From assembly GCF_003570715.1 (NCBI RefSeq), contig NZ_QXXQ01000008.1:1-64000 (forward strand): DNA of 64,000 nt, given 5' to 3'. Source of the stretch: Gemmobacter lutimaris (GTDB taxonomy: Bacteria > Pseudomonadota > Alphaproteobacteria > Rhodobacterales > Rhodobacteraceae). The stretch's first letter is position 1. Each line of letters begins with the position of its first letter. The position numbers were made by a program, and so were the translations under genes. Below the pieces are notes generated by a model, which worked only from the letters and a program-made list of their open reading frames with translations, had not been told where the DNA came from and ran no database searches. Below are positions 26,444-48,896 of this stretch, piece by piece.

Positions 26444-28192
26444 ATGACCAAACGCAACGTGGACCCGATCACCCTTTCGGTGGTGCGCGGGGTGCTGGAA
26501 ACCACCCAGCGCGAAATGACCCTGACGCTGGAACAGACGGCGCGCAGCTCCGTCTTCAACCTCGCACATGATTATTCGACGGCGCTGTTCAACCACACGC
26601 CCGAGATGATCCTGCAAGGGCAGGACATCCCGATCCACCTCGGCTCGCTGATCCCCGCTATGAAATCAGTGGCGAAGTTCTTCGAGGGCGAGATCCACGA
26701 GGGCGACCTGATCCTGCACAACGACCCGGCCTATGGCGGCTCGCATATCATTGACACCTGCATGTATTACCCGGTGTTCTATGAAGGCGAACTGGTGTTC
26801 TGGACGGTCTGCAAGGGTCACCTGACCGACATCGGCGGCCCGGTGCCCGCGGGCTACAACCCCAATGCGACCGAGATCTTCGCCGAAGGCCTGCGCATCC
26901 CGCCGGTGAAACTGTGGGACAAGGGCAAGCCGCGCCATGACGTGATGAATCTGCTTCTGACCAACATGCGCGCGCGCCGCGACCAGGAGGGCGATTTCAA
27001 TGCGCTGATCGGTGCCTGTCAGGTCGGGGCACGCAATCTCATCAACCTGATGAAGAAATACGGGAAAGACGTGGTGCAGGACTGCATCGCCGAACTGCTC
27101 GACATGGCCGAGGCGCATATGCGCAAGCTGATCGCGGGCGTGCCCGACGGCACCTATACCGGCACCGCGATCCTTGAGGACGCGGGCCACGGCTTTGGTG
27201 ATTTCGACATCACCGCCACCGTCACCATCAAGGGCGATGCCTGCCATATCGAGATCGCCTCGCCGCCGCAGGTGCCCTATTTCATCAACAGCTACGAAGG
27301 GAACAGCCATTCCGGCGTTTATCTCGGGCTGATGATGTTTGCCCAACTGCCGCCGCCCTATAACGAGGGGCTCTATCGCTGCGTCACCACCGACATGGGG
27401 CCGAAGGGCACGCTGTGCAACGCGAAATCCCCTGCCCCGCACATGAACTGCACCACCACGCCGATGGAAACCCTGACCGACGCCGTGCGCCTCGCCTTTG
27501 AACAGGCCGCACCCGCCAAGGTCTCGGCCAGCTGGGGCCATGCCAATGGCTGCAACATCGCAGGCTGGGACAAGCGCCATGACGAGGAATATGTGACCAT
27601 GGTGCTGGCCTCCATCATCTCGGGCGCCGGGGCCACGGCCGCACAGGATGGCTGGCACGCCTGCGGCCCGGAATGCTGCTTCGGCGCGCTGACCTCGGGC
27701 GATATCGAGATGCTGGAACACAGCTACCCGATCATCATCCACCGCTACGGGCTGATGGAAGATTCGGGCGGCGCCGGCAAGAATCGCGGCGGCTCCGGCA
27801 CCTGCTGGGAAGTGGAACCGATGGATGCCCCCATGACCCTCGTCACCTTCGGCGAAGGCCGCCGCATTCCCGCCATGGGCGCGGCCGGGGCGAAATCGGC
27901 GCTGGTCCAGCCAAAGGTCGGACGGCTTGAGGTCACCCGCAATGGCCAGACCCAGATCATCACCGAAAACGTGATCGAGACGATCCAGCCCGGCGAACGC
28001 GCCGCCAACAAGAACCCCGGCGGCGGCGGTTACGGCAACCCGTTCGAACGCGACATCCAGAAGGTCGTCGAAGACGTGCGCAACGGCCTCGTCAGCCTCG
28101 AAGGCGCCCGCCTCGACTATGGCGTCGTCATCACCGACCGCGACAGCCTGAGCGTCGATCACGCCGCCACAGCGAAACTCCGCGCCGCCTGA
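26444..28192 (+). CDS. hyuB: hydantoinase B/oxoprolinase-family subunit
   Basis: 582 residues from the ATG at 26444 (ribosome-binding site GGGAAGG); the frame is open to 26243 but begins inside the promoter region. The family start DPITLSVVRGVLETTQREMTLTLEQTARS, the metal-site region KGHLTDIGGPVPAG near 120 and the terminal NPGGGGYGNPFERD are all present. With HyuA it forms an ATP-dependent enzyme that opens cyclic amides (hydantoins, 5-oxoproline, pyrrolidone, caprolactam) or, in carboxylase relatives, activates ketones. It is the first gene of a catabolic run that includes an importer. The ring substrate is not determined by the sequence. Confidence 0.92.
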   Translation: MTKRNVDPITLSVVRGVLETTQREMTLTLEQTARSSVFNLAHDYSTALFNHTPEMILQGQDIPIHLGSLIPAMKSVAKFFEGEIHEGDLILHNDPAYGGSHIIDTCMYYPVFYEGELVFWTVCKGHLTDIGGPVPAGYNPNATEIFAEGLRIPPVKLWDKGKPRHDVMNLLLTNMRARRDQEGDFNALIGACQVGARNLINLMKKYGKDVVQDCIAELLDMAEAHMRKLIAGVPDGTYTGTAILEDAGHGFGDFDITATVTIKGDACHIEIASPPQVPYFINSYEGNSHSGVYLGLMMFAQLPPPYNEGLYRCVTTDMGPKGTLCNAKSPAPHMNCTTTPMETLTDAVRLAFEQAAPAKVSASWGHANGCNIAGWDKRHDEEYVTMVLASIISGAGATAAQDGWHACGPECCFGALTSGDIEMLEHSYPIIIHRYGLMEDSGGAGKNRGGSGTCWEVEPMDAPMTLVTFGEGRRIPAMGAAGAKSALVQPKVGRLEVTRNGQTQIITENVIETIQPGERAANKNPGGGGYGNPFERDIQKVVEDVRNGLVSLEGARLDYGVVITDRDSLSVDHAATAKLRAA

Positions 28193-28207
28193 TCCTCATT
28201 TTCTGTC

Positions 28208-28250
28208 GAAAAATATCCTCGGGGGGTTCGGGGGGCAGACAGCCCCCCGT
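28208..28250. repeat. Rhodobacterial-type intergenic repeat, copy 1
   Basis: AAAATATCCTCGGGGGG at 28209-28225 is followed by the stem-loop GGGGGGC-AGACA-GCCCCCC (28230-28248). The same module recurs twice at 59013-59141. It lies between hyuB and hyuA and could attenuate transcription or stabilise the upstream message. Confidence 0.7.
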
Positions 28251-28281
28251 CCGGCCCCGCCATCCCAAAGGACCGCATCCC

Positions 28282-30402
28282 ATGCAGAACCAGTATCGTC
28301 TCGGCATCGACGCCGGCGGCACCTTCACCGATTTCATCCTGGCCGACCGCAAGGGCGGTGTGCGCATCTTCAAGGCGCTCTCCACCCCCAACGACCCGAC
28401 CGCCGCCATCCGCAACGGGCTGAAGCTGATCGAAGAGGAAACCGGGCTTTCGCCGGAGACCATCGTCTCCAATGCCGATCTCTGCATCAATGGCACCACG
28501 GTCGGGCTGAACGCGCTGATCACCCATAACGGCGCGAAGACCGGCCTGATCGCCACCCGTGGCCACGAGGACAGTATCGAGATCCGCCTTGGCCACAAGG
28601 AAGACGGCTATCGCTACGACCCCGACTATCCGCCCGCCACCATGCTGGTGCCGCGCTACCTGCGCCGTGGCGTGGCCGAACGGGTGCTGTCGAACGGCAA
28701 GGTTCACACCCCCCTGAACGAAGACGACGTGCGCGAGGCCTGCCGGCATTTCATCCGCGAAGGCGTCGAATCCGTCGCCATCAGCTTCGTCTGGTCGGTG
28801 CTGCACCCGGAACATGAAAACCGCGCCGCCGAAATCGTGCGCGAGATGATGCCGCATGTCCGCCTGACAGTGGGCAGCCAGCTTTACCCGCAGGTGCGCG
28901 AATATACCCGCACCTCCACCGCCATCGTGAACGCCTATCTCGCCCCGATCCTGCAACGCTATGTCGAGGCGGTGGACGCCTACTTCCGCAGCCTCGGCGC
29001 CCGCCATCCCGTGCGCTACTTCCAGTCGAACGGCGGGCTGGCGCTTGGCAAGGTTGTGTCGGACCAGTCGGTCTATGCCATCAATTCCGGCCCCGCCTCG
29101 GCGCCGCAGGCGGCGCTCTGGCTGGGTCAGCCCTGGGATATGAAGGACATCATCACCGTCGATATGGGCGGCACCTCATTCGACATCACGCTGACCCGCG
29201 ACGGCCGGGCGAATGTGTCGAAGAACGTCGATTTCCTGCGCTATCGCATCGGCATTCCGATGATCCAGGTTGAAACGCTGGGCGCCGGTGGCGGCTCGAT
29301 CGGCTGGATCGACAGCATGGGCCTCATGCAGATGGGGCCGCAATCGGCGGGGTCCGAACCCGGCCCGGCCTGTTACGATCAGGGCGGCGAGAAACCCACC
29401 ACCACCGACGCCAATCTGGTGCTTGGCTATCTGAACCCAGACGGTCTGGTAGGTGGCCGCCTGCCGCTGAACGTCGAGAAGGCCCGCGCCGCGATCAAGA
29501 CCCATCTGGCCGACCCGCTGGGCATCAGCGTGGAAAAGGCCGCCTATGGCATGTTCACCATTGTCAACAATAACATGGTGAACGCCATCCGCCGCGTCTC
29601 GGTCGAGCGGGGCTATGACCCGCGCGATTTCGTGCTGAACTGCGCGGGCGGCGCGACGGCCGCGCATATCACGGCGCTGGCGCGCGAGATGGGCACCCGC
29701 AAGGTGCTGATCTCCAAACTCGCCTCGGGGCTTTGCGCCTTCGGTCAGATCATCTCGGACGTGAAATACAACTACATGGCCCCCGCCGCCGCCCGTCTGG
29801 AAGGCGCCGAGTCCGCCGCAAAACTGAACGGCCTTTTCAACGGGCTGGAAGCCCGCGGCCGCGAGGATCTCAAATCCGACGGTTTCACCGACGACACGAT
29901 CAGCATCCGTCGCAGCCTCGACATGCGCTATGTCGGACAGGTGCATGAATGCACCGTGGACGTGGACCCGTTCGAGGTGACCGAGGCCGCGCTGGAGCGC
30001 CTGAAGGCCGCCTTTCACGCCCGGCATGAAGAGCTTTACACCTATGCCGAGCCGAACAGCGCGGTCGAGGTGGTCAATGTCGAAAGTGCCATCACCGGCG
30101 CGGTGGACAAGCCCGGCCGCATGACCGTCGCCCCCGGCAAGGGCGCGCATTCGGCGCTGAAGGGCACGCGCGAGATGATCTTCAACGCCGACGGCATCGC
30201 GCATGAAACCCCGGTCTATGACGGCGCGGCGCTTGGCGCGGGCGACCGCATCAGCGGCCCGGCGGTCATTCAGGAGGTCACGACCACCATCGTGATCGAA
30301 CCCGGCTGGCTGGCAGAGCTGGATGCCTCGGGCGTTTACGTCCTGACGCTGGGCGCCCAGACTGGCGCGGTGCAGCCGCAGCGCGCGACCGAGGTCGCCT
30401 GA
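28282..30402 (+). CDS. hyuA: hydantoinase A/oxoprolinase-family subunit
   Basis: 706 residues, full length. The N-terminal nucleotide-binding motif GIDAGGTFTDFILAD is near 8-22; the central ASKHA motifs are VDMGGTSFDI near 293-302 and GAGGGSIGWID near 334-344; GPQSAGSEPGPACYDQGG follows. It provides the ATP-dependent phosphorylation of the amide that precedes ring opening by HyuB. It lies 89 bp after hyuB, the gap being filled by a stem-loop repeat, and only 1 bp before the first transporter gene. Confidence 0.93.
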   Translation: MQNQYRLGIDAGGTFTDFILADRKGGVRIFKALSTPNDPTAAIRNGLKLIEEETGLSPETIVSNADLCINGTTVGLNALITHNGAKTGLIATRGHEDSIEIRLGHKEDGYRYDPDYPPATMLVPRYLRRGVAERVLSNGKVHTPLNEDDVREACRHFIREGVESVAISFVWSVLHPEHENRAAEIVREMMPHVRLTVGSQLYPQVREYTRTSTAIVNAYLAPILQRYVEAVDAYFRSLGARHPVRYFQSNGGLALGKVVSDQSVYAINSGPASAPQAALWLGQPWDMKDIITVDMGGTSFDITLTRDGRANVSKNVDFLRYRIGIPMIQVETLGAGGGSIGWIDSMGLMQMGPQSAGSEPGPACYDQGGEKPTTTDANLVLGYLNPDGLVGGRLPLNVEKARAAIKTHLADPLGISVEKAAYGMFTIVNNNMVNAIRRVSVERGYDPRDFVLNCAGGATAAHITALAREMGTRKVLISKLASGLCAFGQIISDVKYNYMAPAAARLEGAESAAKLNGLFNGLEARGREDLKSDGFTDDTISIRRSLDMRYVGQVHECTVDVDPFEVTEAALERLKAAFHARHEELYTYAEPNSAVEVVNVESAITGAVDKPGRMTVAPGKGAHSALKGTREMIFNADGIAHETPVYDGAALGAGDRISGPAVIQEVTTTIVIEPGWLAELDASGVYVLTLGAQTGAVQPQRATEVA

Positions 30403-30403
30403 G

Positions 30404-31132
30404 ATGGCCCTGACGCTGGAACAGGTGGGGGTCGCCTTCGGCGGCTTCCGGGCGCTGACCGAAGTCAGCCTTGCCATCGAACCCGGGCAGGTCACCGGGC
30501 TGATCGGGCCGAACGGGGCGGGCAAGACGACCTGTGTCAACACGCTCACCGGCTTCCAGCGTCCGGGCACGGGCCGGGTGGTGCTGGAGGGGCGCGACTT
30601 GTCGCGCCTGCCCGCCCATGGCTTTCGCCGCGCAGGTGTGGCGCGCACCTTTCAGGCCGGGCGGCTGTTCGGGGGCCTCGATGTGCTGGACAACCTTGCC
30701 TGCACCGGCGTGGGCCTCGGGCTGCGCCGGGCCGCTGCGGAGCAGGCGGCGGCAGAGGTGCTGCACTGGATGGGGCTTGAGGCGCTGGAAAGCCGTCCCG
30801 CCGCCGGCCTGCCCTATACCGACGAACGACGCGTCGCCATTGCCCGCGCGCTGATCGGGAACCCGCGTTACCTGCTGCTGGATGAACCCGCCGCCGGCAT
30901 GTCGGAAAAGGAAGCCGCCGATCTGGCCGATCTGATCCGCCGTATCGCCACGGAAAAGGGCACCGGCTGTCTGCTCATTGAACACAATGTCGGGCTGGTG
31001 CTCTCGCTCTGCGCGCATGTCGTGGTGCTGGATGGCGGGCGCGTCATCGAACAGGGCGACCGCGCCGCGATCCTTGCCTCTGCCGCCGTACGCGAGGCCT
31101 ATTTCGGCGCCGACCAGCAGGAGGCCGCGTGA
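30404..31132 (+). CDS. livG: LIV-type ABC transporter ATP-binding protein (LivG-like)
   Basis: 242 residues with Walker A GPNGAGKTT near 35-43, Walker B LLLDEPAAGM near 157-166 and switch histidine IEHNVGLV. The usual ABC signature LSGGQ is replaced by LPYTDERRVAIAR, as seen in LivG relatives where it reads L-x-Y-G-x-Q-R; here the Gly/Gln are Thr-Asp-Glu, a notable deviation. It pairs with the LivF-like ATPase. It starts 1 bp after hyuA, implying the importer delivers the HyuBA substrate. Confidence 0.9.
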   Translation: MALTLEQVGVAFGGFRALTEVSLAIEPGQVTGLIGPNGAGKTTCVNTLTGFQRPGTGRVVLEGRDLSRLPAHGFRRAGVARTFQAGRLFGGLDVLDNLACTGVGLGLRRAAAEQAAAEVLHWMGLEALESRPAAGLPYTDERRVAIARALIGNPRYLLLDEPAAGMSEKEAADLADLIRRIATEKGTGCLLIEHNVGLVLSLCAHVVVLDGGRVIEQGDRAAILASAAVREAYFGADQQEAA

Positions 31133-31851
31133 TGGCAAAGCTGGGTATCCATGACCTTGCGGTGCGCTACGGCAAGCTGACCGCGATTTCCGACCTGTCC
31201 TTCACCGTGGCGGAAGGCGAACGCCTGTTCATCTCGGGCCCCAATGGCGCGGGCAAATCCTCGCTGCTGGGGGCCATCTCGGGCGCGGTGCGCGCGGCGC
31301 ATGGCCGGATCGAGATGGATGGCGACATCCTGTCCGGCCTCGGCCCCGAACGCATCGCGCGGCGTGGGCTTTCCATGGTGCCGGAGGGGCGCCGCATCTT
31401 CGGCGGGCTGACCGTACGCGAGAACCTGATGGTCGGCACAGGCATCCGCCGCGACCGCGCCGCCGTCGCCGATGATCTGGAGACAGCTTTCACCGCCTTC
31501 CCGATCCTGCGCGACCGGGCCAATGCCCCGGCCGGGGCGCTTTCGGGGGGCCAGCAACAGATGCTGGCCATCGCCCGCGCGCTGATGACCAACCCCAAGG
31601 TCATGCTGGTCGATGAACCCTCGCTCGGCCTCGCGCCCAAGGTGGTGGACGAGGTCTATGACCGGCTGTGCAGCCTGCAAGCCCTGCGCGGGCTGACGCT
31701 GGTGATCGTGGAACAATCCTCGACCCGCGCCGCGCGGGTGGGCGGGCGCATGATCCTGATGCGTGGCGGGCGCATCGTCGCCGATGGCGATGCCGCCGGT
31801 TTCGCCGCCGCCGACCTGCTGTCGGAAGCCTATTTCGGAGACCCGGCATGA
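31132..31851 (+). CDS. livF: LIV-type ABC transporter ATP-binding protein (LivF-like)
   Basis: 239 residues from the ATG at 31132, which shares its A with the preceding TGA; a GTG three bases upstream is possible. Walker A GPNGAGKSS, signature LSGGQQQM and Walker B VMLVDEPSLGLAP are all intact. It forms the second ATPase of the importer. Its stop overlaps the next ATG by 4 bp. Confidence 0.92.
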   Translation: MAKLGIHDLAVRYGKLTAISDLSFTVAEGERLFISGPNGAGKSSLLGAISGAVRAAHGRIEMDGDILSGLGPERIARRGLSMVPEGRRIFGGLTVRENLMVGTGIRRDRAAVADDLETAFTAFPILRDRANAPAGALSGGQQQMLAIARALMTNPKVMLVDEPSLGLAPKVVDEVYDRLCSLQALRGLTLVIVEQSSTRAARVGGRMILMRGGRIVADGDAAGFAAADLLSEAYFGDPA

Positions 31852-32756
31852 GCCTGCAACTTCTGTTCGATGCCCTGTCGCTGGGCGGCATCTATGCCAT
31901 CGCGGCCCTGGGAATCGCGCTGATCTTCGGCGTGATGAAGCTGGTGAACTTTGCCCATGGCCAGTTCATCGCCTGCGCGGTCTTCGCGCTGATCCTGCCC
32001 TCCACCGATGCGGTGGCGGCGCTGGGGCTGGGCCTCTTGCCCACGCCGTTGCTGATCCTCGCCATCCTCGGCTTCGGCGCGGGGCTGGCCATGGCGGCCG
32101 AGGCTCTGGTGTTCCGGCCGCTGCGCAATGCCTCGCCCGTGGCCTTGATGGTGGGCAGTTTCGCGCTCGGCGTGGCGCTGCAAAACCTATTGCTGGTGCT
32201 TTATGGCGGGCGGCCCAAGGCGATCAGCCTCTGGGCCGGGCTTGGCGCCCCGGTGCAGATAGGCCCGGCGGAGGTGCCCTTGCTGCAACTGATCGTCATC
32301 GCTGCGGTCATCGCCATCCTGCTGGCGCTGGGGCTGATGCTGAAACGCTCGCGCCTCGGGCTGGAGATGCGCGCCGCGGCCGAGGATTTCGGCATGGCGC
32401 AACTGCTGGGCGTGCGGGCAAACCACGTGATCTCGGGCGCCTTCGCGCTGTCGGGGGCACTGGCGGCGGTGGTAGCGCTGGTCATGGTGGCACAGACCGG
32501 GGTCGCCGATGTGCGGATGGGCGGGCAGATCATGCTGATCGCCTTCATCGCCACCGTGGTCGGTGGCATGGGCAGCCTGCCCGGCGCGGTGGCGGCGGGG
32601 CTGGCGATCGGCGCGGCCTCGGCCCTGCTGCAAGCCGGCCTGCCCGATGCGGCGCGGCCGTTCCGCGATGCCTTCCTTTACGCGCTGGTCATCTTTGTCC
32701 TGCTGTTCCGCCCGCAGGGCCTGTTCGCCGCCGCCGGCGCCAAACCGAGGGTCTGA
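31848..32756 (+). CDS. livH: LIV-type ABC transporter permease (LivH-like)
   Basis: 302 residues from the ATG at 31848 (ATGA overlap with livF). About eight membrane helices; GGIYAIAALGIALIFGVMKLVNFAHG at the N-terminus and MRAAAEDFGMAQLLGV in the loop that contacts the ATPases are hallmark LivH segments. It forms half of the inner-membrane channel for branched-chain-amino-acid-type substrates, in this case probably an amide or amino acid analogue used by the surrounding enzymes. Confidence 0.92.
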   Translation: MSLQLLFDALSLGGIYAIAALGIALIFGVMKLVNFAHGQFIACAVFALILPSTDAVAALGLGLLPTPLLILAILGFGAGLAMAAEALVFRPLRNASPVALMVGSFALGVALQNLLLVLYGGRPKAISLWAGLGAPVQIGPAEVPLLQLIVIAAVIAILLALGLMLKRSRLGLEMRAAAEDFGMAQLLGVRANHVISGAFALSGALAAVVALVMVAQTGVADVRMGGQIMLIAFIATVVGGMGSLPGAVAAGLAIGAASALLQAGLPDAARPFRDAFLYALVIFVLLFRPQGLFAAAGAKPRV

Positions 32757-32759
32757 GCC

Positions 32760-33812
32760 ATGATTACCCAACACCGTATCCGCCGCCGCATGGCGGCCAC
32801 CACGCCGGTCCTGCTGGCGCTGCTGCTGCTGGCCTTCGTGGCGCTGACGCTTGCCTTCGGCGACCGCGCGGCCGGGCGCATGGCCTCGGAAACCCTGATC
32901 CGGGTCACGTTGGTCGTGGGGTTCTGGATCTTTGCGGGCAATTCCGGGGTCATCAGCTTTGGCCATGCCGCCTTCGCCTGCGTCGGCGCCTATGTCTCGG
33001 CCTGGACGACGCTGAACCCCGCGATGAAGGCGACGCTGCTGCCCGGCCTGCCGCCCGCGCTGGCTGAGGCGCACTGGCACGTCCTGCCCGCCGCGCTGAC
33101 CGCCGGGCTGGTGGCGGCCGCGCTGGCGCTGGGGACCGGGGCTGCGATCCTGCGGCTTTCGGGCATCGCCGCCTCCATCGCCACTTTCGCCTTTCTTGCC
33201 ATGGTCAACACGATCTGGGCGAACTGGACCCCGGTCACTGGCGGCACTTCGTCTGTCGTGGGGCTGGCGCGCTATGTCACCCCTTGGGTGGCGCTTGGCT
33301 GGGCCGTCGCCGCGATCCTTGCCGCCAGCCTTTACGCCGCCTCCGCCTCGGGCCTCGCCCTGCGCGCCACGCGTGAGGATGAGGTGGCAGCCTCTGCCTC
33401 CGGCATCGACCAATACCGCCACCGCCTGCTGGCCTATACGCTGTCGGCCTTTTTCTGTGGCGTGGGCGGGGCGCTGGCCGGACATTTCATCGGCGTCATC
33501 AACCCCGACGGGTTCTACCTGAGCCTGACCTTCCTCATGCTTGCCATGCTTGTGGTCGGCGGCATCGGCTCGCTTTCGGGCGCGGTGGTCGGCGTGCTGG
33601 CGGTATCCCTGGCAGTAGAGGCGCTGGTGCGGCTGGAAAAGGGCTTCACCCTTGGCGCCACCACCTTCGCCCTGCCCCCCGGCAGTCAGGAAATCATCAT
33701 CGCCCTTGCGATGATCCTCGTCCTTGTCTTTCGCCCCGCCGGTCTGATGGCCGGGCGCGAGATCATGCTGCCCGCCCGCTGGGTCACCGGGCGCGGCACA
33801 TCGCAAAACTGA
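32760..33812 (+). CDS. livM: LIV-type ABC transporter permease (LivM-like)
   Basis: 350 residues with about nine membrane helices. SGVISFGHAAFACVGAY near 62-78, the coupling-loop motif GLALRATREDEVAASASGI near 199-217 and the final LVFRPAGLMAGRE mark LivM. It forms the second half of the channel and follows livH by 3 bp. Confidence 0.92.
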   Translation: MITQHRIRRRMAATTPVLLALLLLAFVALTLAFGDRAAGRMASETLIRVTLVVGFWIFAGNSGVISFGHAAFACVGAYVSAWTTLNPAMKATLLPGLPPALAEAHWHVLPAALTAGLVAAALALGTGAAILRLSGIAASIATFAFLAMVNTIWANWTPVTGGTSSVVGLARYVTPWVALGWAVAAILAASLYAASASGLALRATREDEVAASASGIDQYRHRLLAYTLSAFFCGVGGALAGHFIGVINPDGFYLSLTFLMLAMLVVGGIGSLSGAVVGVLAVSLAVEALVRLEKGFTLGATTFALPPGSQEIIIALAMILVLVFRPAGLMAGREIMLPARWVTGRGTSQN

Positions 33813-33836
33813 CCCATATCCAACAGGAGACTTGCC

Positions 33837-35012: not shown

Positions 35013-35019
35013 GGCCATG

Positions 35020-35624: not shown

Positions 35625-35689
35625 GCCGAACCCCTTGGTTTTGCACAGCATAATCAGACTGCCGAAAACGCGCAATCTTTTGCCATGCA

Positions 35690-35734
35690 GCGCATTGTCA
35701 CATCGCATCATATTGCTCAATATATTGCGCATTG
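35690..35734. promoter_or_regulatory. candidate operator region of the XRE-cupin regulator
   Basis: In the 145-bp divergent gap, GCGCATTG occurs twice (35690-35697 and 35727-35734) and the palindrome CAATATATTG sits at 35718-35727; another half-site GCGCAAT is at 35670-35676. The AT-rich dyad lies about 40 bp upstream of the aminotransferase start, a suitable place for repression. Confidence 0.6.
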
Positions 35735-40579: not shown

Positions 40580-42289
40580 CAGCTTTCGCAGCGCGGGCAG
40601 CATGTCATCCAGCCCCGCGCAGGGCGTGGCGCCAAGAGCCGCAATCTCGGCCGTTACATCGACCGGCAGGCCGGTGTTCGACGTATCGGGGATCTGGTTC
40701 AGTTTGCCGCCGATCAGCACCGGCAGCGCCACCCCCTGCCGCGCCAGCGCCGCCATCACCGCCTGCGCATAACCAAGCGCCACGCCATTATAGGTGCTGA
40801 TCGCCAGCGCCTCGGCCCCTTCGGCCAGCGCCTGCGCAACCAACGCTTCGGCGTCGGTGCTGACCCCGCCGTCCAGAACCTCGGCGCCCATGCCTTCCAG
40901 CGCCTGTTCGACCAGATACTTGCCATGTTCATGCACATCGCTCGTGCCGACACAGACCCGCAATCGCCGCGGCAACGCGGATTGCCCGGCAACCCAGCGT
41001 TCGGCCTTTTCATCCAGTTCGCGCGCCCATTCGGCGGCGACCAATGGCGCCCGACCGCGCGCGGCCAGCGGGCCTTGCCCGAACAGCGCCTCCAGTCGTT
41101 TCGGCCCCATGCGGCGGATCGCCAGCAACAGGGCCGCCGGGTCATCCCCCGGCACACCCCGGTCAGCCAGCCCCGTCAGCACACTTGCGGCAAAGGCACG
41201 GCCCCCCGCAACCAGCCGGTCGGCCAGCGCCTCGACCCGCGGCCAGTCAGTCAGCGCGGCGTGATGCGGCGCATGATCGGCCAGGCGACGGGCAAAAGCC
41301 TGCGCCTCGACGATTTCATCGACATCCGGGATGCGCTGGTTCTCGGTCACCGGCACCGGGTTCACCGCATGGCCCGTCGCCCAGCGACCCAGCGCCATCA
41401 TGTCAGCCAGCAAGTAGCTTGCAAGGCTTGCATAATTCCCGGCCGAACCAGTCTGATAGGCTACGGTATTGCCAAAGATCATGGTGCCCGGCGTGTCTGA
41501 CACCCGCGCCAGAGCAGCATGGAAGGCCATGCGCGACAGCGGATCGCTGAAATGGTGGCCATGGCAATGCGCCAGCCGTGCGCCGATCAGCCCTTCGACG
41601 ATGTGCTTTTCCACCAGCACCATGCCAAGCGCCGAGGCCATGTCCAGAAACAGCCCCGCAAAGCCGTCGTCGAGATTGGAATGCACCAGAACCTGTGTTT
41701 CCTGCGCGGCGATCAGGCCAAGGGCGGTCACGGTCGCCTCGGTCGTTGCCACATCATCATCCCAATAGGGCAGGCGGAAGGTGAAATACTGGCCCAGATT
41801 GCCGACCGAGGTGGCACCGGCCGCCAGCGCGGCGCAGGTGTTTTCCACACAGCCCGGCAGGCCGATCATGAAATCGCCGAAATGCGCGGCGGCGGGCGCG
41901 GCATGGGTGATGCGGGCGAAATCTTCTGGCCCCGTCAGCACGATGCCGGTGCCACGCGCAGCCTTTTCCCGCAACGGCTGCGGATAGCCCATCGACCAGT
42001 CGAGCGTGATGCCGAAGCGGTCCACCGTCACGCCTTGGGTGGTGCAGCGGTCATGCACCTCGGCAATGGCGCCCAGCGTGCGTTCGACATTGCGAAAACC
42101 AATATGGGCGTGCTGCATGATACGGCTGTTGCCGATGCGGCGCTTCCATTCCACCTCGGACGTCACGGCCTTCTCGGCAAAGAACGGGCAAGGACCGACG
42201 CGCCAGTCACGGGCAAGCGCGCGGCCACGCGACAGAAGGTCAGCACCGGGAGGAAGGCGCGGGTCAGTGAGCAGCGGGGATTCGGACAT
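40574..42289 (-). CDS. cobalamin-binding carbon-skeleton mutase-like enzyme, single chain (glutamate-mutase-like)
   Basis: 571 residues from the ATG at 42289. Residues about 440-571 are a B12-binding domain with the textbook spacing: DVHEHG at 451-456, 41 residues, STY, 26 residues, GG. This is the DxHxxG-x41-SxL-x26-GG signature of base-off/His-on mutases, with Tyr instead of Leu. Residues 1-430 look like the glutamate mutase E TIM barrel (GLPGCVENTCAALAAGATSVGNLGQYFTF, then DDDVATTEATVTALGLIA). In glutamate mutase the two parts are separate subunits; here they are fused with the small domain last. It should need adenosylcobalamin and rearrange a carbon skeleton, but the substrate is unknown. 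Homology of the barrel is judged by eye. Confidence 0.75.
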   Translation of the reverse strand: MSESPLLTDPRLPPGADLLSRGRALARDWRVGPCPFFAEKAVTSEVEWKRRIGNSRIMQHAHIGFRNVERTLGAIAEVHDRCTTQGVTVDRFGITLDWSMGYPQPLREKAARGTGIVLTGPEDFARITHAAPAAAHFGDFMIGLPGCVENTCAALAAGATSVGNLGQYFTFRLPYWDDDVATTEATVTALGLIAAQETQVLVHSNLDDGFAGLFLDMASALGMVLVEKHIVEGLIGARLAHCHGHHFSDPLSRMAFHAALARVSDTPGTMIFGNTVAYQTGSAGNYASLASYLLADMMALGRWATGHAVNPVPVTENQRIPDVDEIVEAQAFARRLADHAPHHAALTDWPRVEALADRLVAGGRAFAASVLTGLADRGVPGDDPAALLLAIRRMGPKRLEALFGQGPLAARGRAPLVAAEWARELDEKAERWVAGQSALPRRLRVCVGTSDVHEHGKYLVEQALEGMGAEVLDGGVSTDAEALVAQALAEGAEALAISTYNGVALGYAQAVMAALARQGVALPVLIGGKLNQIPDTSNTGLPVDVTAEIAALGATPCAGLDDMLPALRKLL

Positions 42290-42399: not shown

Positions 42400-43146
42400 A
42401 TGCTGGGGATCATCGGAGTCGGGCATCTGGCGGCGGCGCTGTTGGCCGGGCTGCACCGGGCCGGGTTCGCACCCGGCGAGGTGCTCCTGTCGCCGCGCGG
42501 CCGGGCGGCAGAAATGGCGGTGCGATATGGGCATGCACTGGCCCGCGACAACGCCGATCTGGTGGCGCGCTGCGATCTGGTCCTGCTAGCGGTCCGGCCA
42601 GCCGCTGCGGCGGGCGCGGTGGCGGGGCTGCCTTGGCGCGCGGGGCAGGTGCTGGTTTCGGCCTGCGCCGGTGTGCCACTTGCGGCGCTGGACGCAGGCC
42701 CTGCGCAGCGCATGCGCATCATGCCACTCACGGCGGCCGAGGTCGGCGCCAGCCCGACCACCTGCTTTCCTGATCTGCCCGAGGCGCGACAGTTACTGGA
42801 GGCACTCGGCCCCGTCATCCCGCTGACCAGCGAAGCGGAGTTCGAAATCGCCACCGTTTCCGCCGCGATCTATGGCTGGGCGCAGGACCTCATCGCGCGC
42901 AGCACCGAATGGGCCGCCGCGCAGGGGCTTGACCCGCAGGTGGCGCGGCGATTGAACGCGCTGACCTTCGCCGCCGCCGGGGCGCTGATCGACGGTAAGC
43001 CACAGCCGATGGCGCAGATGCTGCGCGAGCTTGTCACCCCCGGTGGCATCACCGAACGCGGCTTTCAGGTGCTGGCGGCGCATGGCGTAGGCCCCGGATG
43101 GGAGGCCGCCTGCGACGCTGTGCTGGACAAGCTGAAAGGGCGTTAA
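42400..43146 (+). CDS. ProC-like NAD(P)H-dependent imine reductase
   Basis: 248 residues with the N-terminal Rossmann motif LGIIGVGHLAAALLAGL, the second segment CDLVLLAVRP near 62-71, VSACAGVPLAAL near 86-97, RIMPLTAAEVGAS near 106-118, and a helical C-terminal dimer domain containing QMLRELVTPGGITERGF with the pattern of pyrroline-5-carboxylate reductase. True ProC reads MPNTP at the second position; here it is MPLTA, so a housekeeping proline role is doubtful. It may reduce another cyclic imine of this cluster. Its stop shares TTAA (43143-43146) with the P450 gene. Confidence 0.85.
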   Translation: MLGIIGVGHLAAALLAGLHRAGFAPGEVLLSPRGRAAEMAVRYGHALARDNADLVARCDLVLLAVRPAAAAGAVAGLPWRAGQVLVSACAGVPLAALDAGPAQRMRIMPLTAAEVGASPTTCFPDLPEARQLLEALGPVIPLTSEAEFEIATVSAAIYGWAQDLIARSTEWAAAQGLDPQVARRLNALTFAAAGALIDGKPQPMAQMLRELVTPGGITERGFQVLAAHGVGPGWEAACDAVLDKLKGR

Positions 43147-45413
43147 AGCGCCAGCTTCAACCGCCCCTCCCCGCGCGAGCGGCAGCACATCATCCGGGTG
43201 CCTGCCGCCTTTTCAGCGGAGCTCAGCACCTTGTCGCGGTGATCGACCGTGCCGTCCAGCACCGCGACTTCGCAACTGCCACACAGCCCCTCCTCGCAAT
43301 CCGAGGCGATGTCGATCCCGGCCGCGCGCAGCACCTGCAACAGGGTGCGGTCAGCGGGCACGGGCAGGGTGAAGCCGCTGTCGGCCAGTTCGACCTCGAA
43401 GGGGCGGTTGTCAGCAGGGTCGGTATCGTCGCCCGCGCTGAAATGTTCGATGGCCAGCACCAGATCGGGGCGCGTGGTCGTCAGGGTTTGCAAAGCCTCA
43501 AGCATTCGCGCCGGACCGCAGGCCGAGATCCGGGTGCCCGGCGCGGCAGCGACGACCAGCGCCGCCAGATTTGCGTGTGGCACCCGGTCGCGCGGATGCG
43601 CCGTCACCCGCCCCGCGTGATCGCGGTTCAGCCGCGCCAGATGCGCCATCCGCGCCTCGGCGCCGCCAAGGTAATGCAGATGGTAAGGCGCCCCGATCCG
43701 CTTCAGCCGGTCGGCCATGGCCAGAAGCGGCGTGATGCCGATCCCCCCGGCGATCAGCAGGTGCTCGGGCGCCGTCTCGTCCAGCGGGAAGTGATTGCGC
43801 GGCCCGCGCAACCGCAGCACCGTGCCGGGTGTCACCTTATGAAACCGGCACGAACCGCCGCGCCCGGCCTCCTCGCGCAGGATCGAGACGGTATAGCCCG
43901 GCGCATCCGGATCACCGCAAAGCGAATAGCTGCGGTCGAAGCCGTCAAGCTCCAGATCCACATGTGCACCAGCGGTCCAGCGCGGCAGCGGGCGCCCCTG
44001 CGGATCGGCCAGTTGCAGAGAAATGACGCCTTCAGCCTCCGTCTGCACCGCTGTCACCACCACGCTGCGGGCGATGTCCTTGCGGCGTGGGGCACCGATC
44101 TCGAACCGCGTGCGCTCGGCGCCTTCCGCCGGATTGGCGGCAACATCCCATTCCACCCAAAGGTGATCCGGCCCCCGGAACGAGGTATTGGGCAGATAGG
44201 TGAAATCCTGTTCGGCCAGCCGCAGATGCGGCAGGCGGCGGGACAGTTCCTCAAGGATGATACGCAGTTCCAGCCGGGCAAGGTTTTTGCCCATGCACTG
44301 ATGCGCGCCATAACCGAAGGTCAGATGGTCGGTGGCATTATCGCGGTAGATGTCGAAACTGTCGGCATTCTGAAACTGGCGTTCGTCATGGTTGGCGCTG
44401 GCCATGACGATCAGCAGCTTCGCCCCCGCAGGCAAATCGGTGCCGCCCACCGTGGCGGGCGCCGTCAACTGCCGCCGCCAGGCCACGACCGACCCCGCAT
44501 AGCGCAGGCATTCCTCCACCGCATTGGGGATCAGCGCCGCATCCTCGCAGATCGCGCGCCAGCCCGCGCCATCGGTCAGCAACAGCTTGATCGCATTGGC
44601 CGCCGCATGGGCGGTGGTTTCATGCGCGGCCACGATGATCGCCATCATCATCGAATGCAGATAGCTGTCGGTCACGATGTCAGGGTGCAGGGCGTTCTGC
44701 CGGATCGCCTCATGCATCCAGCCCTTGCCCTCGGGTTCCGCCCGCATGCGGTCCAGCACCTCGCCCGCGAACTGCCAGAACCGGCCCACCTCATGCGCCA
44801 GCGCGATCTGATCCTCGCGCGAGGGGCGGCCCCAGGTATTGACGGTATGCGCCATGGAAAACTCGCGCAGACGCGCCATGTCGCTTTCCGGCACGCCAAG
44901 GAAATGCAGCGCCACGGTCAGCGGAATTTCCCACAGCATCTCCTCCACCAGATCGGCGCGGCCTTTGGCGACGAAGGCATCCACCTTCTCGCGCGTCAGC
45001 GCCCGCACGCGATCGCGGTGCGCCTCAAGATTGGCGGGCAGGAAATGCGCCATCAACAAGCGGCGGCGTTCGGTATGGGCGGGCTCGTCCTCGTTCACCA
45101 GCGTCCGGTTCATCGCATAGCCATAAGAGGCCAGCACTGCCATCGCCTCCTCCGGGAAGGGCGTGATCTTTTCCAGAACATTGCAGGGCGAGAACAGCAG
45201 TGGATCGCGGAACACCGCCTTCACATCGGCGTAGCGGCTGACCACCCAATAGCCGGTTTCAGGGTTGAAGAACACAGGCTCCTCCGCCCGTGCCCAGGCC
45301 AACGCGGCGGCGGGATCAAGCTGATAGGCCCCGGTGAACGGATCGAAGGCACGGGCGCGGTCCGACACGGGGCAGGCTGCGCCATCGGCATGGGCCGGGC
45401 ATCCGGTGGTCAT
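43143..45413 (-). CDS. self-sufficient cytochrome P450, CYP116B type (P450-FMN reductase-ferredoxin fusion)
   Basis: 756 residues in one chain. P450 domain at 1-430: I-helix AHETT at 263-267, ExxR at 301-304 and haem ligand C373 in FGYGAHQCMG. Reductase domain at about 440-665: FMN motif RSYSLCG and GGIGITPLLAMADRL. The C-terminal plant-type [2Fe-2S] domain has cysteines at 706, 711, 714 and 743. This is the P450RhF/CYP116B architecture, which takes electrons from NAD(P)H without partners. Relatives hydroxylate and N- or O-dealkylate aromatic and thiocarbamate compounds. It is divergent from an IclR gene and probably controlled by it. Confidence 0.95.
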   Translation of the reverse strand: MTTGCPAHADGAACPVSDRARAFDPFTGAYQLDPAAALAWARAEEPVFFNPETGYWVVSRYADVKAVFRDPLLFSPCNVLEKITPFPEEAMAVLASYGYAMNRTLVNEDEPAHTERRRLLMAHFLPANLEAHRDRVRALTREKVDAFVAKGRADLVEEMLWEIPLTVALHFLGVPESDMARLREFSMAHTVNTWGRPSREDQIALAHEVGRFWQFAGEVLDRMRAEPEGKGWMHEAIRQNALHPDIVTDSYLHSMMMAIIVAAHETTAHAAANAIKLLLTDGAGWRAICEDAALIPNAVEECLRYAGSVVAWRRQLTAPATVGGTDLPAGAKLLIVMASANHDERQFQNADSFDIYRDNATDHLTFGYGAHQCMGKNLARLELRIILEELSRRLPHLRLAEQDFTYLPNTSFRGPDHLWVEWDVAANPAEGAERTRFEIGAPRRKDIARSVVVTAVQTEAEGVISLQLADPQGRPLPRWTAGAHVDLELDGFDRSYSLCGDPDAPGYTVSILREEAGRGGSCRFHKVTPGTVLRLRGPRNHFPLDETAPEHLLIAGGIGITPLLAMADRLKRIGAPYHLHYLGGAEARMAHLARLNRDHAGRVTAHPRDRVPHANLAALVVAAAPGTRISACGPARMLEALQTLTTTRPDLVLAIEHFSAGDDTDPADNRPFEVELADSGFTLPVPADRTLLQVLRAAGIDIASDCEEGLCGSCEVAVLDGTVDHRDKVLSSAEKAAGTRMMCCRSRGEGRLKLAL

Positions 45414-45444
45414 TGGCGATCCTCCCTTGCGGCTTGCGATATGA

Positions 45445-45455
45445 GCGATAATCGC
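45445..45455. promoter_or_regulatory. palindrome in the P450-IclR divergent gap
   Basis: GCGATAATCGC is a perfect 11-bp palindrome in the 85-bp gap between the P450 (start 45413) and IclR (start 45499) genes, flanked by ATATG and ATAT. It is the best candidate operator for this IclR protein. Confidence 0.5.
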
Positions 45456-45498
45456 ATATTAATGTGCTATATATGACGCTACAGAAAGGACAGCACTC

Positions 45499-46194
45499 GT
45501 GTCAACTGCAACGACCCCTGAGCGGGTGCAGACGCTCGACCGTGGCTTGCAAGCGTTGAGCGTCATTGCCGCGCGCGGGCCGATCGGCATGGCCACGCTG
45601 GCGCAGGCGTTGGGGGTAGACCGGCGCATCTGTTACCGGCTGGTTGCCACGCTGGAGGCGCATGCCTTCGTCACGCGGCTGGCGGATGGCACGGCGATCC
45701 TCGGGCCGGGGCTCTTGCCGCTGATGCAGGGGGTGCACGCGCGGCTGCGGCTGCATGGGCAAACCGCGGTAGATGCGCTGGCCCGTGATACCGGGCAGAC
45801 GGCCTTCCTTTCGGTCGCGGCGGGCGAGGACTGTCTGGCGCTGCTGGCCAGCCCGGGGCGTGGCGGGCTGCTGGAGATCACCTATCGCGTCGGTGCCCGC
45901 CATCCCATCGGGCGCGGCGCGGCGGGTATCGCCATCCTGTCGGCACGGCCACCGCAGCCGGACGACAGCGCGCAGGTCATGCAGGCACGGCGTGACGGCT
46001 GGTCGGCGACCAGCGGCGAGTTGCAGCCGGGCGCGCATGGCGTGGCTGTGCCGCTGCACGCAGGATTCCTGAGCCGTGCCGGAATCGAGGCGTGTCTGGG
46101 CGTGGTCAGCGCCCAGCCCCCTGACCTGTCAAGCACCGTAGACGCACTGGATACCGCCGCAACACGACTGGCCGCGCAACTGGACGGCGCTTAG
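45499..46194 (+). CDS. IclR-family transcriptional regulator
   Basis: 231 residues from a GTG start at 45499, with GAAAGGA as ribosome-binding site. The winged helix is at about 8-70 (LDRGLQALSVIAARGPIGMATLAQALGVDRRICYRLVATLEAH) and the effector domain at about 85-225 with reduced length compared with the usual 250-270 residues. It diverges from the P450 gene. Its stop TAG (46192-46194) overlaps the stop of the molybdenum hydroxylase gene coming from the other side. It probably senses the P450 substrate or a pathway intermediate. Confidence 0.9.
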   Translation: MSTATTPERVQTLDRGLQALSVIAARGPIGMATLAQALGVDRRICYRLVATLEAHAFVTRLADGTAILGPGLLPLMQGVHARLRLHGQTAVDALARDTGQTAFLSVAAGEDCLALLASPGRGGLLEITYRVGARHPIGRGAAGIAILSARPPQPDDSAQVMQARRDGWSATSGELQPGAHGVAVPLHAGFLSRAGIEACLGVVSAQPPDLSSTVDALDTAATRLAAQLDGA

Positions 46195-48431
46195 GCGAAA
46201 TCGACGAACTTGCCGAAGGGCATTTCGCGCAGCCTTTGCCCGGTTGCAGCAAAGATCGCATTGGCCAGCGCCGGCGCGGCGGGGGGCACCGGCGGCTCAC
46301 CGATGCCGCGCACTTCGGGCGCGGTTTCCAGCACCCGCACCACAATCTCGGGGCATTGGTCCAGCCGCATGCCGCTGTGACTGTCGTAATTGGTCTGCTC
46401 CGCCATGCCGTCGGCATAGGTGATCTCGCAATTCATCGCGTGACCCAGACCCCAGATGACCGCGCCCTGAATCTGGTTCTCGATATTCACCGGATCGACG
46501 ACGCGGCCCACATCGGCCACGCAGAACACCCGGTCGATACGCAGCCCGGCGCCGGTCATGCGCACATCCACCACTTCGGCGACATTGACCCCGAAGCTCT
46601 GCACCAGCGCGACGCCCCTGCCCTGCCCCGGCGCGTGGCTTGGACCTTGCCAGCCCGACAATTCCGCCACCGCCTCCAACACGCCGCGCGCTACCGGGTC
46701 GGCACAGAGGCGCAACCGTTCGGCCATCGGGTCGGCCCCGGCGGCGTGGATCAGCTCGTCCAGAAAGCTTTCAAGGAAGAACCCGCCGAGCGAAGCGCCG
46801 ACCGAACGCCAGCTGGATACCGGCGCCAGCCCTTCCACCGCATGCGCGCGCACCCGGAAGGCGGTGGGGGCGTAAGGCGCGTTCCAGATGCCGGCAGGAA
46901 GCTGATTGTCCGGCCCCGGCACCGAATAGCCCGCGCGCGCCAGTTGCGAGCGACTGGGCGAGGGGCCGGAGGTCACGATCTCCACCGCCTGCACCTGCCC
47001 GTTCGCCACCGTGCCGCGCCCGCGCGCCATGCCCAGCGGGCGGGTGAAATCCTGCGCGAAATCCTCTTCGCGGGAATAGGTCAGCTTGACCGGGGTGCCG
47101 GGCATCTGCCGCGCAATCTCGGCCGCGCGCAGCACATGGTCAAATTCCAGCCGGTGCCCGAAACTGCCCCCCGCGAACTGGTTGTGCAACGTGATCTGGC
47201 CGGATTTCTGGCCGGTGACGCCCGCCACCAGATCCTGCAACATCCGGGGAAGCTGATGCGCCGTCCAGACCTCGGTTTCCGCCTCCGAATAGCGGACAAT
47301 CGCGTTCAGCGGTTCCAGCGGCTGATGCGCCAGATAGGGCGCGCGGTATTCGGCGCTGACGACATCGGCGGCGGAGAGCGCCGCGTCCATATTGCCATCG
47401 ACACGCCATTCCTTGTCCAGATGCGCAGGATCAAAGCCTGCCTCCACCGCCGTCCAGTGATCGGCCATTTTGGCGGGGTAAGGCGCAGGCCCCCATTCAC
47501 AGACCACCGCCTGCGCCGCCTGAATGGCGCGCCATGTGTTATCGGCGATGACCGCCACGCCGTCGCGGATTGGCAGCACCTGCGCGACGCCGCGCATCGC
47601 CTTCGCCCCGGTCGCATCATGGCTGAGCAGTGCGCCTCGACGCGGGTTCAGTCGCACCGCCGCATGGACCATGCCCTCGACCTTCAGGTCGATACCATAG
47701 ACCTGTGTGCCGGTGGATTTGGGCAAGATATCCAGCCGCCGCATCGGCTTGCCGATCAGCCGCCAGTCACTTGCCGGCCGCAAGGGCACATCCTGCACCG
47801 GGTCGGCCTGCGCTGCATCAACCGCCAGCGCGGTATAGGGCACCGCCGTGCCATCCGGCAGGATCACCGCGCCGTTCTCGCTGCGCAGCAGGGCCACATC
47901 GACACCGTGGCGCTGTGCCACCACCCGCTTCAGCGTTTCGCGGGCCATGGCGCCCGCCTGCCGCAGCTTCACGAAACTGTCCGGCACCGCACTGGAGCCG
48001 CCCGTGCCCTGCATCCCGACCAACTTGAACGCTGCATTCATCGCGCCGCGCGTGGCACGGGCGGCCAGACCAGCATCTCCCGGCAAGAAAGGCGCGCTTT
48101 CAGCGCCCAGGGCAGTGTTCCAATAGGCGGCGGCGGGCGGGCCGAATTCGGTGGCGACCTGCGCGGGGTCGACGTCCAGCTCCTCGGCGATCAGCAGCGC
48201 CTGCATCGACATCGCCCCCTGCCCCAGATCGGCATGCGGGGTGATCAGGATGATGCGGTCGGCGGTGATCTTGACCCAAGGGTTGAAGCTCGCCTCCCCC
48301 TGCGCCAACCCGGGCAGCAGCGGGTTTTCAGGGGTCTTGCGCCAGCTATAGACGCCGAAAGCCACACCCCCCGCGATGGCGGCAGAGCCAACCAGAAAGC
48401 TGCGCCTCGCGATCTTGCCGATCCGGGACAT
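46191..48431 (-). CDS. molybdopterin-dependent oxidoreductase large subunit (isoquinoline 1-oxidoreductase beta type)
   Basis: 746 residues. The N-terminus has a Tat-type motif (ARRSFLVGSAAIAGGVAFGVY), as in many IorB relatives, so it may be membrane-tethered or exported. Molybdenum-hydroxylase features follow: ITPHADLGQGAMSMQALLIAEEL near 62-85, QFAGGSFGHR near 345-354 and RSVGASLGGFFLESFLDEL in the cofactor region, and a terminal IGEPPVPPAAPALANAIFAATGQRLREMPF carrying the family's catalytic-Glu-type GEPP segment. It hydroxylates a carbon next to a ring nitrogen, or oxidises an aldehyde, with water as oxygen donor. It partners with the [2Fe-2S] subunit 3 bp upstream. Confidence 0.9.
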   Translation of the reverse strand: MSRIGKIARRSFLVGSAAIAGGVAFGVYSWRKTPENPLLPGLAQGEASFNPWVKITADRIILITPHADLGQGAMSMQALLIAEELDVDPAQVATEFGPPAAAYWNTALGAESAPFLPGDAGLAARATRGAMNAAFKLVGMQGTGGSSAVPDSFVKLRQAGAMARETLKRVVAQRHGVDVALLRSENGAVILPDGTAVPYTALAVDAAQADPVQDVPLRPASDWRLIGKPMRRLDILPKSTGTQVYGIDLKVEGMVHAAVRLNPRRGALLSHDATGAKAMRGVAQVLPIRDGVAVIADNTWRAIQAAQAVVCEWGPAPYPAKMADHWTAVEAGFDPAHLDKEWRVDGNMDAALSAADVVSAEYRAPYLAHQPLEPLNAIVRYSEAETEVWTAHQLPRMLQDLVAGVTGQKSGQITLHNQFAGGSFGHRLEFDHVLRAAEIARQMPGTPVKLTYSREEDFAQDFTRPLGMARGRGTVANGQVQAVEIVTSGPSPSRSQLARAGYSVPGPDNQLPAGIWNAPYAPTAFRVRAHAVEGLAPVSSWRSVGASLGGFFLESFLDELIHAAGADPMAERLRLCADPVARGVLEAVAELSGWQGPSHAPGQGRGVALVQSFGVNVAEVVDVRMTGAGLRIDRVFCVADVGRVVDPVNIENQIQGAVIWGLGHAMNCEITYADGMAEQTNYDSHSGMRLDQCPEIVVRVLETAPEVRGIGEPPVPPAAPALANAIFAATGQRLREMPFGKFVDFA

Positions 48432-48434
48432 GAC

Positions 48435-48896
48435 TCAACCCTCCCGCATCAGTTGCGCCGCGCGATGCACCGCCGCACGGATGCGCGGGTAGGTGCCGCA
48501 GCGGCAGAGGTTACCCGCCATCACCTCGTCGATCTCGGCATCGCTCGGGTTCGGGGTCTGCGCCAGCAGGGCGGCGGCCTGCATGATCTGGCCCGACTGG
48601 CAGTAACCGCATTGCGCCACCTGCCCCTCCAGCCATGCCGCCTGCACCGCATGCAGCGCGGCGGGGGTGCCCAGCCCTTCGATGGTGGTGATCTCGGCGC
48701 CTTCCGCCTCGGCTGCCGGGATCTGGCAGGACCGCATCGCCTCGCCGCCCAGCCAGACGGTGCAGGCACCGCATTGCGCAATGCCGCAGCCGTATTTGGT
48801 GCCGGTCAGGCCCAGTTCATCGCGCAACACCCACAACAGCGGCATGTCGGGTTCGACATCCACCTCGTGCATGGTCCCGTTCACATTCAGTCGCAT
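48435..48896 (-). CDS. [2Fe-2S] small subunit of the molybdenum hydroxylase (isoquinoline 1-oxidoreductase alpha type)
   Basis: 153 residues with both iron-sulfur sites of the xanthine-oxidase family small subunit: plant-type cysteines in [15 protein letters not shown] and a later C, then the helical domain with [11 protein letters not shown] and [12 protein letters not shown]. It passes electrons from the molybdenum site to an acceptor. No FAD subunit gene is present nearby, which fits the IorAB type that donates to a cytochrome or other acceptor rather than to NAD. It is the first gene of the two-gene unit. Confidence 0.95.

Follow-up and report, generated by a model that had tools for sequence, protein, structure and literature searches.

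The window analysed here comprises positions 1 to 64,000 of contig NZ_QXXQ01000008.1 of Gemmobacter lutimaris (G000:C74:1-64000; genome of 4.66 Mb in 76 contigs), with a GC content of 61-70% across its 2-kb blocks. Between positions 26444 and 40579 it carries a conserved gene unit with a predicted role in lactam utilisation. We consider it probable that this unit leads from delta-valerolactam via 5-aminovalerate, glutarate and glutaryl phosphate to glutaryl-CoA, and that the genes to its right are neighbours from other pathways. This right half (40574-48896) appears to be separable: to judge from the gene neighbourhoods, a B12 protein with a ProC-like reductase, a cytochrome P450 with an IclR-like regulator, and a molybdenum (Mo) hydroxylase would belong to other pathways. 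An earlier interpretation made without database searches (the sequence-only reading) had joined all these genes into one route from ring oxidation to skeleton rearrangement. All gene types named there are present as intact frames with a family match, and the genes for lactam uptake and ring opening, for deamination and oxidation to the acid and for CoA activation do form a conserved unit. The single route through all genes was rejected by comparison of gene neighbourhoods.

Gene content and conservation of the lactam unit

The unit begins with two genes that the sequence-only reading had named hyuBA. A cyclic-amide-opening pair is indeed present, and its more exact identity is the caprolactamase/valerolactamase CapBA, for which ATP-dependent hydrolysis of a lactam is predicted. 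Both subunits pass their NCBIfam cut-offs and have 6yra as the best PDB match: capB (26444..28192, forward strand, ATG at 26444) encodes the beta subunit (NF050157, 1112.8 bits, cut-off 1000; 6yra_B, 936.9 bits) and capA (28282..30402, forward) the ATP-binding alpha subunit (NF050156, 1231.8 bits, cut-off 1000; 6yra_A, 837.1 bits). The ATP motifs DxGGTxxD, DMGGT and GxxPGP, which are named for CapA of Pseudomonas jessenii (PMC8453981), are kept in the window protein at residues 10, 294 and 357. For the metal site of P. jessenii CapB the residues Asp41, His99, Asp101 and His124 are given (PMC8453981). In the alignment of the window protein with 6yra, counted by eye, Asp41, His99 and His124 are conserved, as is a nearby Asp at position 102 in the numbering of that chain. 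An AraC/FeaR-like regulator gene (25184..26236, reverse; FeaR model 140.2 bits, cut-off 199) is divergent from capBA.

Downstream of capA, livGFHM and a gene for a substrate-binding protein (30404..35012, forward) encode an ABC importer of the branched-chain type. The listed frame of livH (31668-32756) overlaps livF, and its real start probably lies inside this frame. A PuuR-like cupin/helix-turn-helix regulator gene (35046..35732, reverse; PuuR model 122.4 bits, cut-off 211), absent from the earlier gene list, stands between the importer and a class III omega-aminotransferase of the 4-aminobutyrate (GABA)/5-aminovalerate type (35770..37065, forward; TIGR00700 561.9 bits, cut-off 506.65), whose ATG start at 35770 lies within a longer open frame. 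The aminotransferase matches structures of PuuE and of 4-aminobutyrate aminotransferase, and passing TIGR00700 cannot tell a GABA from a 5-aminovalerate enzyme. It is followed by a semialdehyde dehydrogenase (ALDH; 37140..38579, forward) with the Pfam domain Aldedh and the proposed substrate glutarate semialdehyde; its best NCBIfam model is alpha-ketoglutaric semialdehyde dehydrogenase (498.7 bits, cut-off 770). The last two genes encode an acid kinase of the butyrate kinase family (38583..39683, forward; NF002834 425.1 bits, cut-off 222), a proposed glutarate kinase, and an acyltransferase of the phosphotransbutyrylase (PTB) family (39677..40579, forward; 217.2 bits, cut-off 399), a proposed phosphotransglutarylase.

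The range from a decarboxylase gene at 23311 to the end of a LacI gene at 55798 is collinear in the near relative G001, with 91-99.7% protein identity. This collinearity says little, since the two genomes are so close. Relatives of the kinase are rare. With the own genome counted each time, and with genomes that are samples from larger groups, they were found in 7 of 248 genomes of the family (E 1e-40), 2 of 385 of the class (E 1e-60) and 8 of 341 of the order (E 1e-90). The kinase neighbourhoods of all 12 other genomes from the family and order searches were compared, with the window proteins and enzymes of Paracoccus and G291 as queries and a match threshold of E 1e-5 (a further genome of the class, G062, with 41% identity, was left out). 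Two of these stretches are short contigs (G164, 3.6 kb; G784, 7.3 kb), so that absences there mean little. The PTB gene adjoins the kinase gene in all 12 loci. An ALDH with at least 66% identity is present in 10 of them, the aminotransferase with at least 75% identity in 7, and the PuuR-like regulator likewise in 7 (65-82%). capB and capA followed by the complete Liv importer were found in five (G041, G275, G002, G734 and G888), and in all five the AraC/FeaR-like regulator gene adjoins capB (56-67%). On plasmids the kinase matched 137 records, all of them below 60% identity.

Glutarate and the proposed role of the kinase pair

On the proposed route the Liv-type transporter would import a lactam, most likely delta-valerolactam (2-piperidone), and CapBA would open the ring at the expense of ATP to give 5-aminovalerate. 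The aminotransferase would yield glutarate semialdehyde, which the ALDH would oxidise to glutarate. The butyrate kinase homologue would then phosphorylate glutarate to glutaryl phosphate, the PTB homologue would transfer the acyl group to form glutaryl-CoA, and crotonyl-CoA would arise through a glutaryl-CoA dehydrogenase whose gene lies outside the unit, at another place in the genome. Family membership, gene order, the conservation of the unit and the repeated company of kinase/PTB and glutaryl-CoA dehydrogenase genes in relatives are observed, and the size of the ring, each of these reactions and the direction of the kinase step are what we infer.

A glutaryl-CoA dehydrogenase gene accompanies the kinase and PTB genes in five of the 12 loci (G243, G291, G749, G681 and G784), directly beside the kinase gene in G243, G749 and G681. 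In G291 the order is PuuR-like regulator, aminotransferase, glutaryl-CoA dehydrogenase, ALDH, kinase, PTB and 3-hydroxybutyryl-CoA dehydrogenase (the latter with 502.5 bits, cut-off 420), a gene set which reads as a path from 5-aminovalerate via glutarate to acetoacetyl-CoA. The best PDB match of the G291 dehydrogenase over nearly its full length is titled acyl-CoA dehydrogenase (706.7 bits), and the nine matches ranked after it (361-639 bits) carry the title glutaryl-CoA dehydrogenase; the protein scores 230 against the single NCBIfam glutaryl-CoA dehydrogenase model listed (cut-off 470). A relative with 83% identity to the G291 enzyme is encoded on another contig of the window genome. Delta-valerolactam was assigned as the substrate of the capBA unit because the acid of the G291 module was transferred to the version with capBA.

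In P. putida a route with DavT, DavD and a CoA-transferase follows 5-aminovalerate. Like the window pair, OplBA of P. putida KT2440 belongs to the CapAB family. OplAB shares 80-86% identity with the CapAB pair of P. jessenii and in vitro favours delta-valerolactam as compared with caprolactam, with only trace activity on gamma-butyrolactam; unlike the window unit, no kinase/PTB pair is described with it in the passages of that report on the enzyme (PMC11033972). A related arrangement was found in Paracoccus capBA clusters, described here from P. ferrooxidans pFER4; the same two matched pieces occur in five other records. These clusters share capBA, a GABA-type aminotransferase (gabT), a semialdehyde dehydrogenase (SSADH) and a helix-turn-helix regulator divergent from capBA. 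They differ from the window in an annotated allantoin permease after capA, and in an acyl-CoA dehydrogenase and a CoA-transferase that replace the kinase/PTB pair; the best model of the latter is succinate--glutarate CoA-transferase (507 bits, under the cut-off of 750). No glutarate CoA-transferase was found inside the lactam unit of the window. The assignment of delta-valerolactam agrees with the preference of OplAB and with this glutarate-type CoA-transferase in the place of the kinase pair; on this reading the butyrate kinase homologue would act as a glutarate kinase and the PTB homologue as a phosphotransglutarylase. On Paracoccus plasmids such as L154 and L129 the annotated allantoin permease gene follows capBA, and L129 carries a gene annotated as N-methyl-L-proline demethylase (hpbA) about 2 kb upstream of capB.

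The kinases of the window unit and of the related kinase/PTB modules are 61-96% alike and 36-47% like five other butyrate kinases. In a comparison of 11 module sequences (the window and 10 others, without L137, in which no frame was recognised by its motif, and without the split gene of G275) with these five, fixed differences include Arg205 for Ala/Gly (11 of 11 versus none of 5), Phe295 for Gly and Leu194 for His. That Arg205 might be a ligand of a second carboxylate is a suggestion only. A paper on glutarate activation by a kinase and a phosphotransacylase was not found in the open-licence literature, judged by title and beginning of the abstract. Kinase-type activation of the acid in a lactam operon would be new, while the opening of lactams by CapBA-type enzymes is already known.

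Several observations weigh against the proposed route. None of the 12 kinase stretches contains both capBA and a glutaryl-CoA dehydrogenase gene, so that glutarate is carried over from sister modules, and neither of the two was found in G228 (38 kb) or on the 3.6-kb contig of G164. Genes near the G228 kinase encode, among others, an ABC ATPase closest to PotA and an aldehyde dehydrogenase resembling PuuC, each scoring under its model cut-off; by inference these could supply the same amino acid from a diamine. In G275 (C5:253635-254716, L152) the kinase is split into two pieces in different frames within an otherwise complete capBA unit, by decay of the gene or by a sequencing error. capBA also occurs in other company, as there is no annotated aminotransferase or acid kinase nearby in the stretch shown of Paracoccus seriniphilus and of a Shinella plasmid. 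ALDH and PTB remain below every specific NCBIfam cut-off listed. The kinase passes the butyrate kinase model and may act on butyrate or another acid. Furthermore, a homologue of succinate--glutarate CoA-transferase (596.8 bits, cut-off 750) is encoded on a separate contig of the window genome; the kinase pair may thus be redundant for glutarate or act on another acid.

The NCBI name of both CapBA subunits, caprolactamase, would fit a C6 substrate and is a further point against delta-valerolactam. On a true caprolactam route, with 6-aminohexanoate and adipate as intermediates, the kinase pair would form adipyl-CoA, a step for which a CoA-transferase has been proposed in P. jessenii. P. jessenii CapAB does yield 6-aminocaproate (PMC8453981), and the cluster of strain GO3 resembles the window in its CapBA equivalent by both NCBIfam cut-offs and in lactam opening followed by an aminotransferase and a semialdehyde dehydrogenase. 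It differs in a Vibrio fluvialis-like aminotransferase, a GabD-like dehydrogenase, the CoA-transferase proposed for adipate and beta-oxidation genes, and its induced ABC transporter proteins are encoded on other contigs (PMC6061476), whereas the window has a Liv importer within the unit, a GABA-type aminotransferase (the two aminotransferases were compared by description, without alignment) and the kinase/PTB pair. The GABA type of the aminotransferase, the glutarate-type CoA-transferase in the Paracoccus capBA cluster and the glutaryl-CoA dehydrogenase with kinase and PTB in five of 12 relatives (genes of adipyl-CoA beta-oxidation were not searched for) make the caprolactam route rather unlikely. 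That the unit serves a gamma-lactam and GABA (C4), or that the kinase pair works in reverse to gain ATP from an acyl-CoA such as butyryl-CoA, would fit the GABA model of the aminotransferase and the butyrate kinase model, but is improbable in view of the trace activity of OplAB on gamma-butyrolactam and the association of kinase and PTB with glutaryl-CoA dehydrogenase, and succinate would require no such kinase.

Right-hand genes and the proposed single long route

The right half of the region holds genes on mixed strands. The gene of the B12-dependent mutase-like protein (40574..42289, reverse) is followed by one for a ProC-like imine reductase (42400..43146, forward), identified by library matches and regarded as the partner of the B12 protein. 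A self-sufficient P450-reductase-ferredoxin fusion (43143..45413, reverse), which we take to be CYP116B-like, matches PDB entries 6kbh and 6laa over nearly its full length, and an IclR-like regulator gene (45499..46194, forward) was recognised by library matches. The Mo hydroxylase consists of a large subunit (46191..48431, reverse) with a twin-arginine-like N-terminus, read by eye, and a 2Fe-2S small subunit (48435..48896, reverse; library matches). The large subunit, a putative isoquinoline-type enzyme in the sequence-only reading, contains generic Mo-cofactor domains in Pfam and stays under every NCBIfam cut-off listed. All these genes except the regulator gene were individually judged to be separate from the lactam unit.

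On one long route, P450 and Mo hydroxylase would oxidise an N-heterocycle such as piperidine to the lactam before CapBA acts, and the B12 mutase would rearrange a CoA-ester at the end. A ring-oxidising enzyme beside a lactamase is chemically sensible, the N-terminus of the Mo hydroxylase makes lactam formation in the periplasm before import conceivable, and the 22-kb block, collinear and 91-99% alike in G001, was kept together at least briefly. However, glutaryl-CoA requires no skeleton rearrangement, and the gene neighbourhoods make such a route hardly likely. None of the 12 other kinase loci has a B12, ProC, P450 or IclR match at E 1e-5, and for Mo there is only a fragment with 46.6 bits in G291, at a distance of about 16 kb. 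In the genus itself, G002 carries the lactam unit alone, without right-half genes in a 32-kb stretch, and G004 (40 kb) and G007 (31-kb contig) have the B12 gene without capBA. Among the genomes examined the whole gene set occurs only in the two close genomes G000 and G001.

P450 relatives at E 1e-200 were found in 12 of 248 genomes of the family, the own genome included. The 11 other P450 neighbourhoods show no B12, ProC, Mo, kinase or PTB match at E 1e-5, in stretches of about 7-10 kb per side that leave capBA out of reach (L191 is a 9-kb contig). A divergent IclR-like gene stands beside the P450 gene in five of the 11, which explains the IclR gene in the window; it probably regulates the P450 gene. 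P450 neighbours in Roseibium and on a Sulfitobacter plasmid include TRAP transporters, which give no substrate hint. Relatives of the Mo large subunit at E 1e-150 are present in 138 of 248 genomes of the family, again with the own genome included, and are not diagnostic.

Around the B12 gene, the kinase, PTB, aminotransferase and P450 were found at only one of 80 loci, L049, the Gemmobacter caeni locus itself. These are the best 80 of 99 genomes that encode a relative in the genome collection, with both 10-kb flanks available in 59 of the 80. Such flanks bring kinase, PTB and aminotransferase within reach and are too short for a capB gene as far off as it lies in the window: capA and capB were missed even in the positive control L049, so that the near absence of capBA (one capA-like match, no capB) was not used as evidence. 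The separation from capBA is carried by the comparisons over longer stretches. Mo hydroxylase, P450, ProC-like reductase and B12 protein, counted by the sequence-only reading as steps of the lactam route, appear each to have other partners elsewhere and, apart from the Mo fragment, are absent from the kinase loci; the independent scattering of homologues in related genomes, which that reading had named as a refuting outcome, speaks against its full single route.

Outside the region discussed, positions 49010-55798 encode a sugar-type ABC importer, a Gfo/Idh dehydrogenase, a xylose-isomerase-like protein and a LacI regulator and look like a separate sugar/polyol unit. A TonB receptor, a FecCD-type permease, an ABC protein, a periplasmic binding protein and an ExbB-like protein at 15694-21630 (reverse) form an iron-siderophore or haem uptake unit. 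Positions 23311-25187 encode a pyridoxal phosphate-dependent decarboxylase and an adjoining protein of 160 amino acids without a Pfam or NCBIfam match, both kept in G001.

The B12 protein family and its meaning

The B12 protein, the most surprising neighbour of the lactam unit, is a member of a mutase-like orphan family that seems to have no relation to the lactam route. Credible sequence matches of this protein to Pfam, NCBIfam and PDB are confined to its C-terminal B12 domain, which contains DVHEHG, an instance of the B12 motif DxHxxG. A structural model built from 48 aligned relatives (pLDDT 91.5, pTM 0.92) predicts a barrel followed by the B12 domain, as in the adenosylcobalamin mutases (methylmalonyl-CoA mutase, glutamate mutase E, ornithine 4,5- and lysine 5,6-aminomutase). 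In a Foldseek search methylmalonyl-CoA mutases ranked top (6oxd_A, E 2.9e-13, TM 0.50/0.40, rmsd 15.7), and glutamate mutase E and both aminomutases also matched below 0.001. The fold is also matched (from E 8.9e-9) by methionine synthases, a group of methyltransferases. Most full-length superpositions are poor (rmsd 11-27), possibly due to different domain angles. The tightest long match is glutamate mutase E (TM 0.45-0.54, rmsd 5.4-5.8, about 430 columns); this speaks for a mutase rather than a methyltransferase.

Unlike the fold, the sequence of the barrel shows no similarity to known mutases in PDB, Pfam or NCBIfam. Profile comparison of the barrel with glutamate mutase E and methylmalonyl-CoA mutase (hhalign) gave probabilities of 0.1-0.6%, against 0.1-0.4% for shuffled controls, with a sensitivity limited by two sequences per target. 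An identity as methylmalonyl-CoA mutase or glutamate mutase was rejected by sequence. Of the earlier name 'B12 mutase' the predicted fold stands, and a named family is not provided by sequence; by its modelled fold the protein is probably a mutase, of a family without a name in the libraries searched. Two matches to the methylmalonyl-CoA mutase family above cut-off are present elsewhere in the window genome. Narrow term combinations found nothing on the B12 family in the literature, and such combinations do not show absence from print.

Near full-length B12 genes occur in five of 100 relatives searched (G001, G004, G007 in two neighbouring pieces, G087 and G014). The 31-40 kb stretches around the gene in the latter four contain no capA, capB, kinase or PTB match, and three of the four contain a ProC-like gene. 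Among the 80 loci a ProC-like gene is present in 53, in 20 of them within 250 bp. Two kinds of catabolic cluster recur around the B12 gene: many rhizobial loci also encode a cupin, an AspDH-type dehydrogenase, an alpha/beta hydrolase, an FAD_binding_2 oxidoreductase, E1/E2-type dehydrogenase components, a NIPSNAP protein, a 3HCDH-type dehydrogenase, GntR and a Liv importer, and loci of the Ancylobacter type have a proline racemase, a DAO-type oxidase and a DapA-like protein (the names DapA-like, E1/E2, GntR and importer come from sequence reading and plasmid annotation). A protein of 289 amino acids (L061:16278-17147, forward; cluster 13) has relatives in 23 of the 80 loci and no Pfam family match.

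Both halves taken together permit a joint reading, which we put forward tentatively and at somewhat less than even confidence. Glutarate kinase and phosphotransglutarylase would be a new way into glutaryl-CoA, and the B12 protein would represent a new family of single-chain adenosylcobalamin mutases, with a barrel without sequence kinship to known mutases. Together with the ProC-like imine reductase (in rhizobia with AspDH-like, cupin, hydrolase and E1/E2-dehydrogenase-like partners) it would act on a probably cyclic or imino amino acid, by an undescribed rearrangement of the skeleton or of an amino group.

The window illustrates how a pathway suggested by nothing more than the adjacency of genes can fall apart on comparison. 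The B12 protein looks like a member of a mutase family without a name that is present in many rhizobia and rhodobacteria, and the conserved gene clusters around it could point to the substrate. If the proposed lactam route is true, the unit would be a compact operon for using delta-valerolactam, the monomer of nylon-5, with applications in recycling and lactam sensing, and this bacterial family would possess a second way of glutarate activation, via a butyrate-kinase-like enzyme and a phosphotransacylase.

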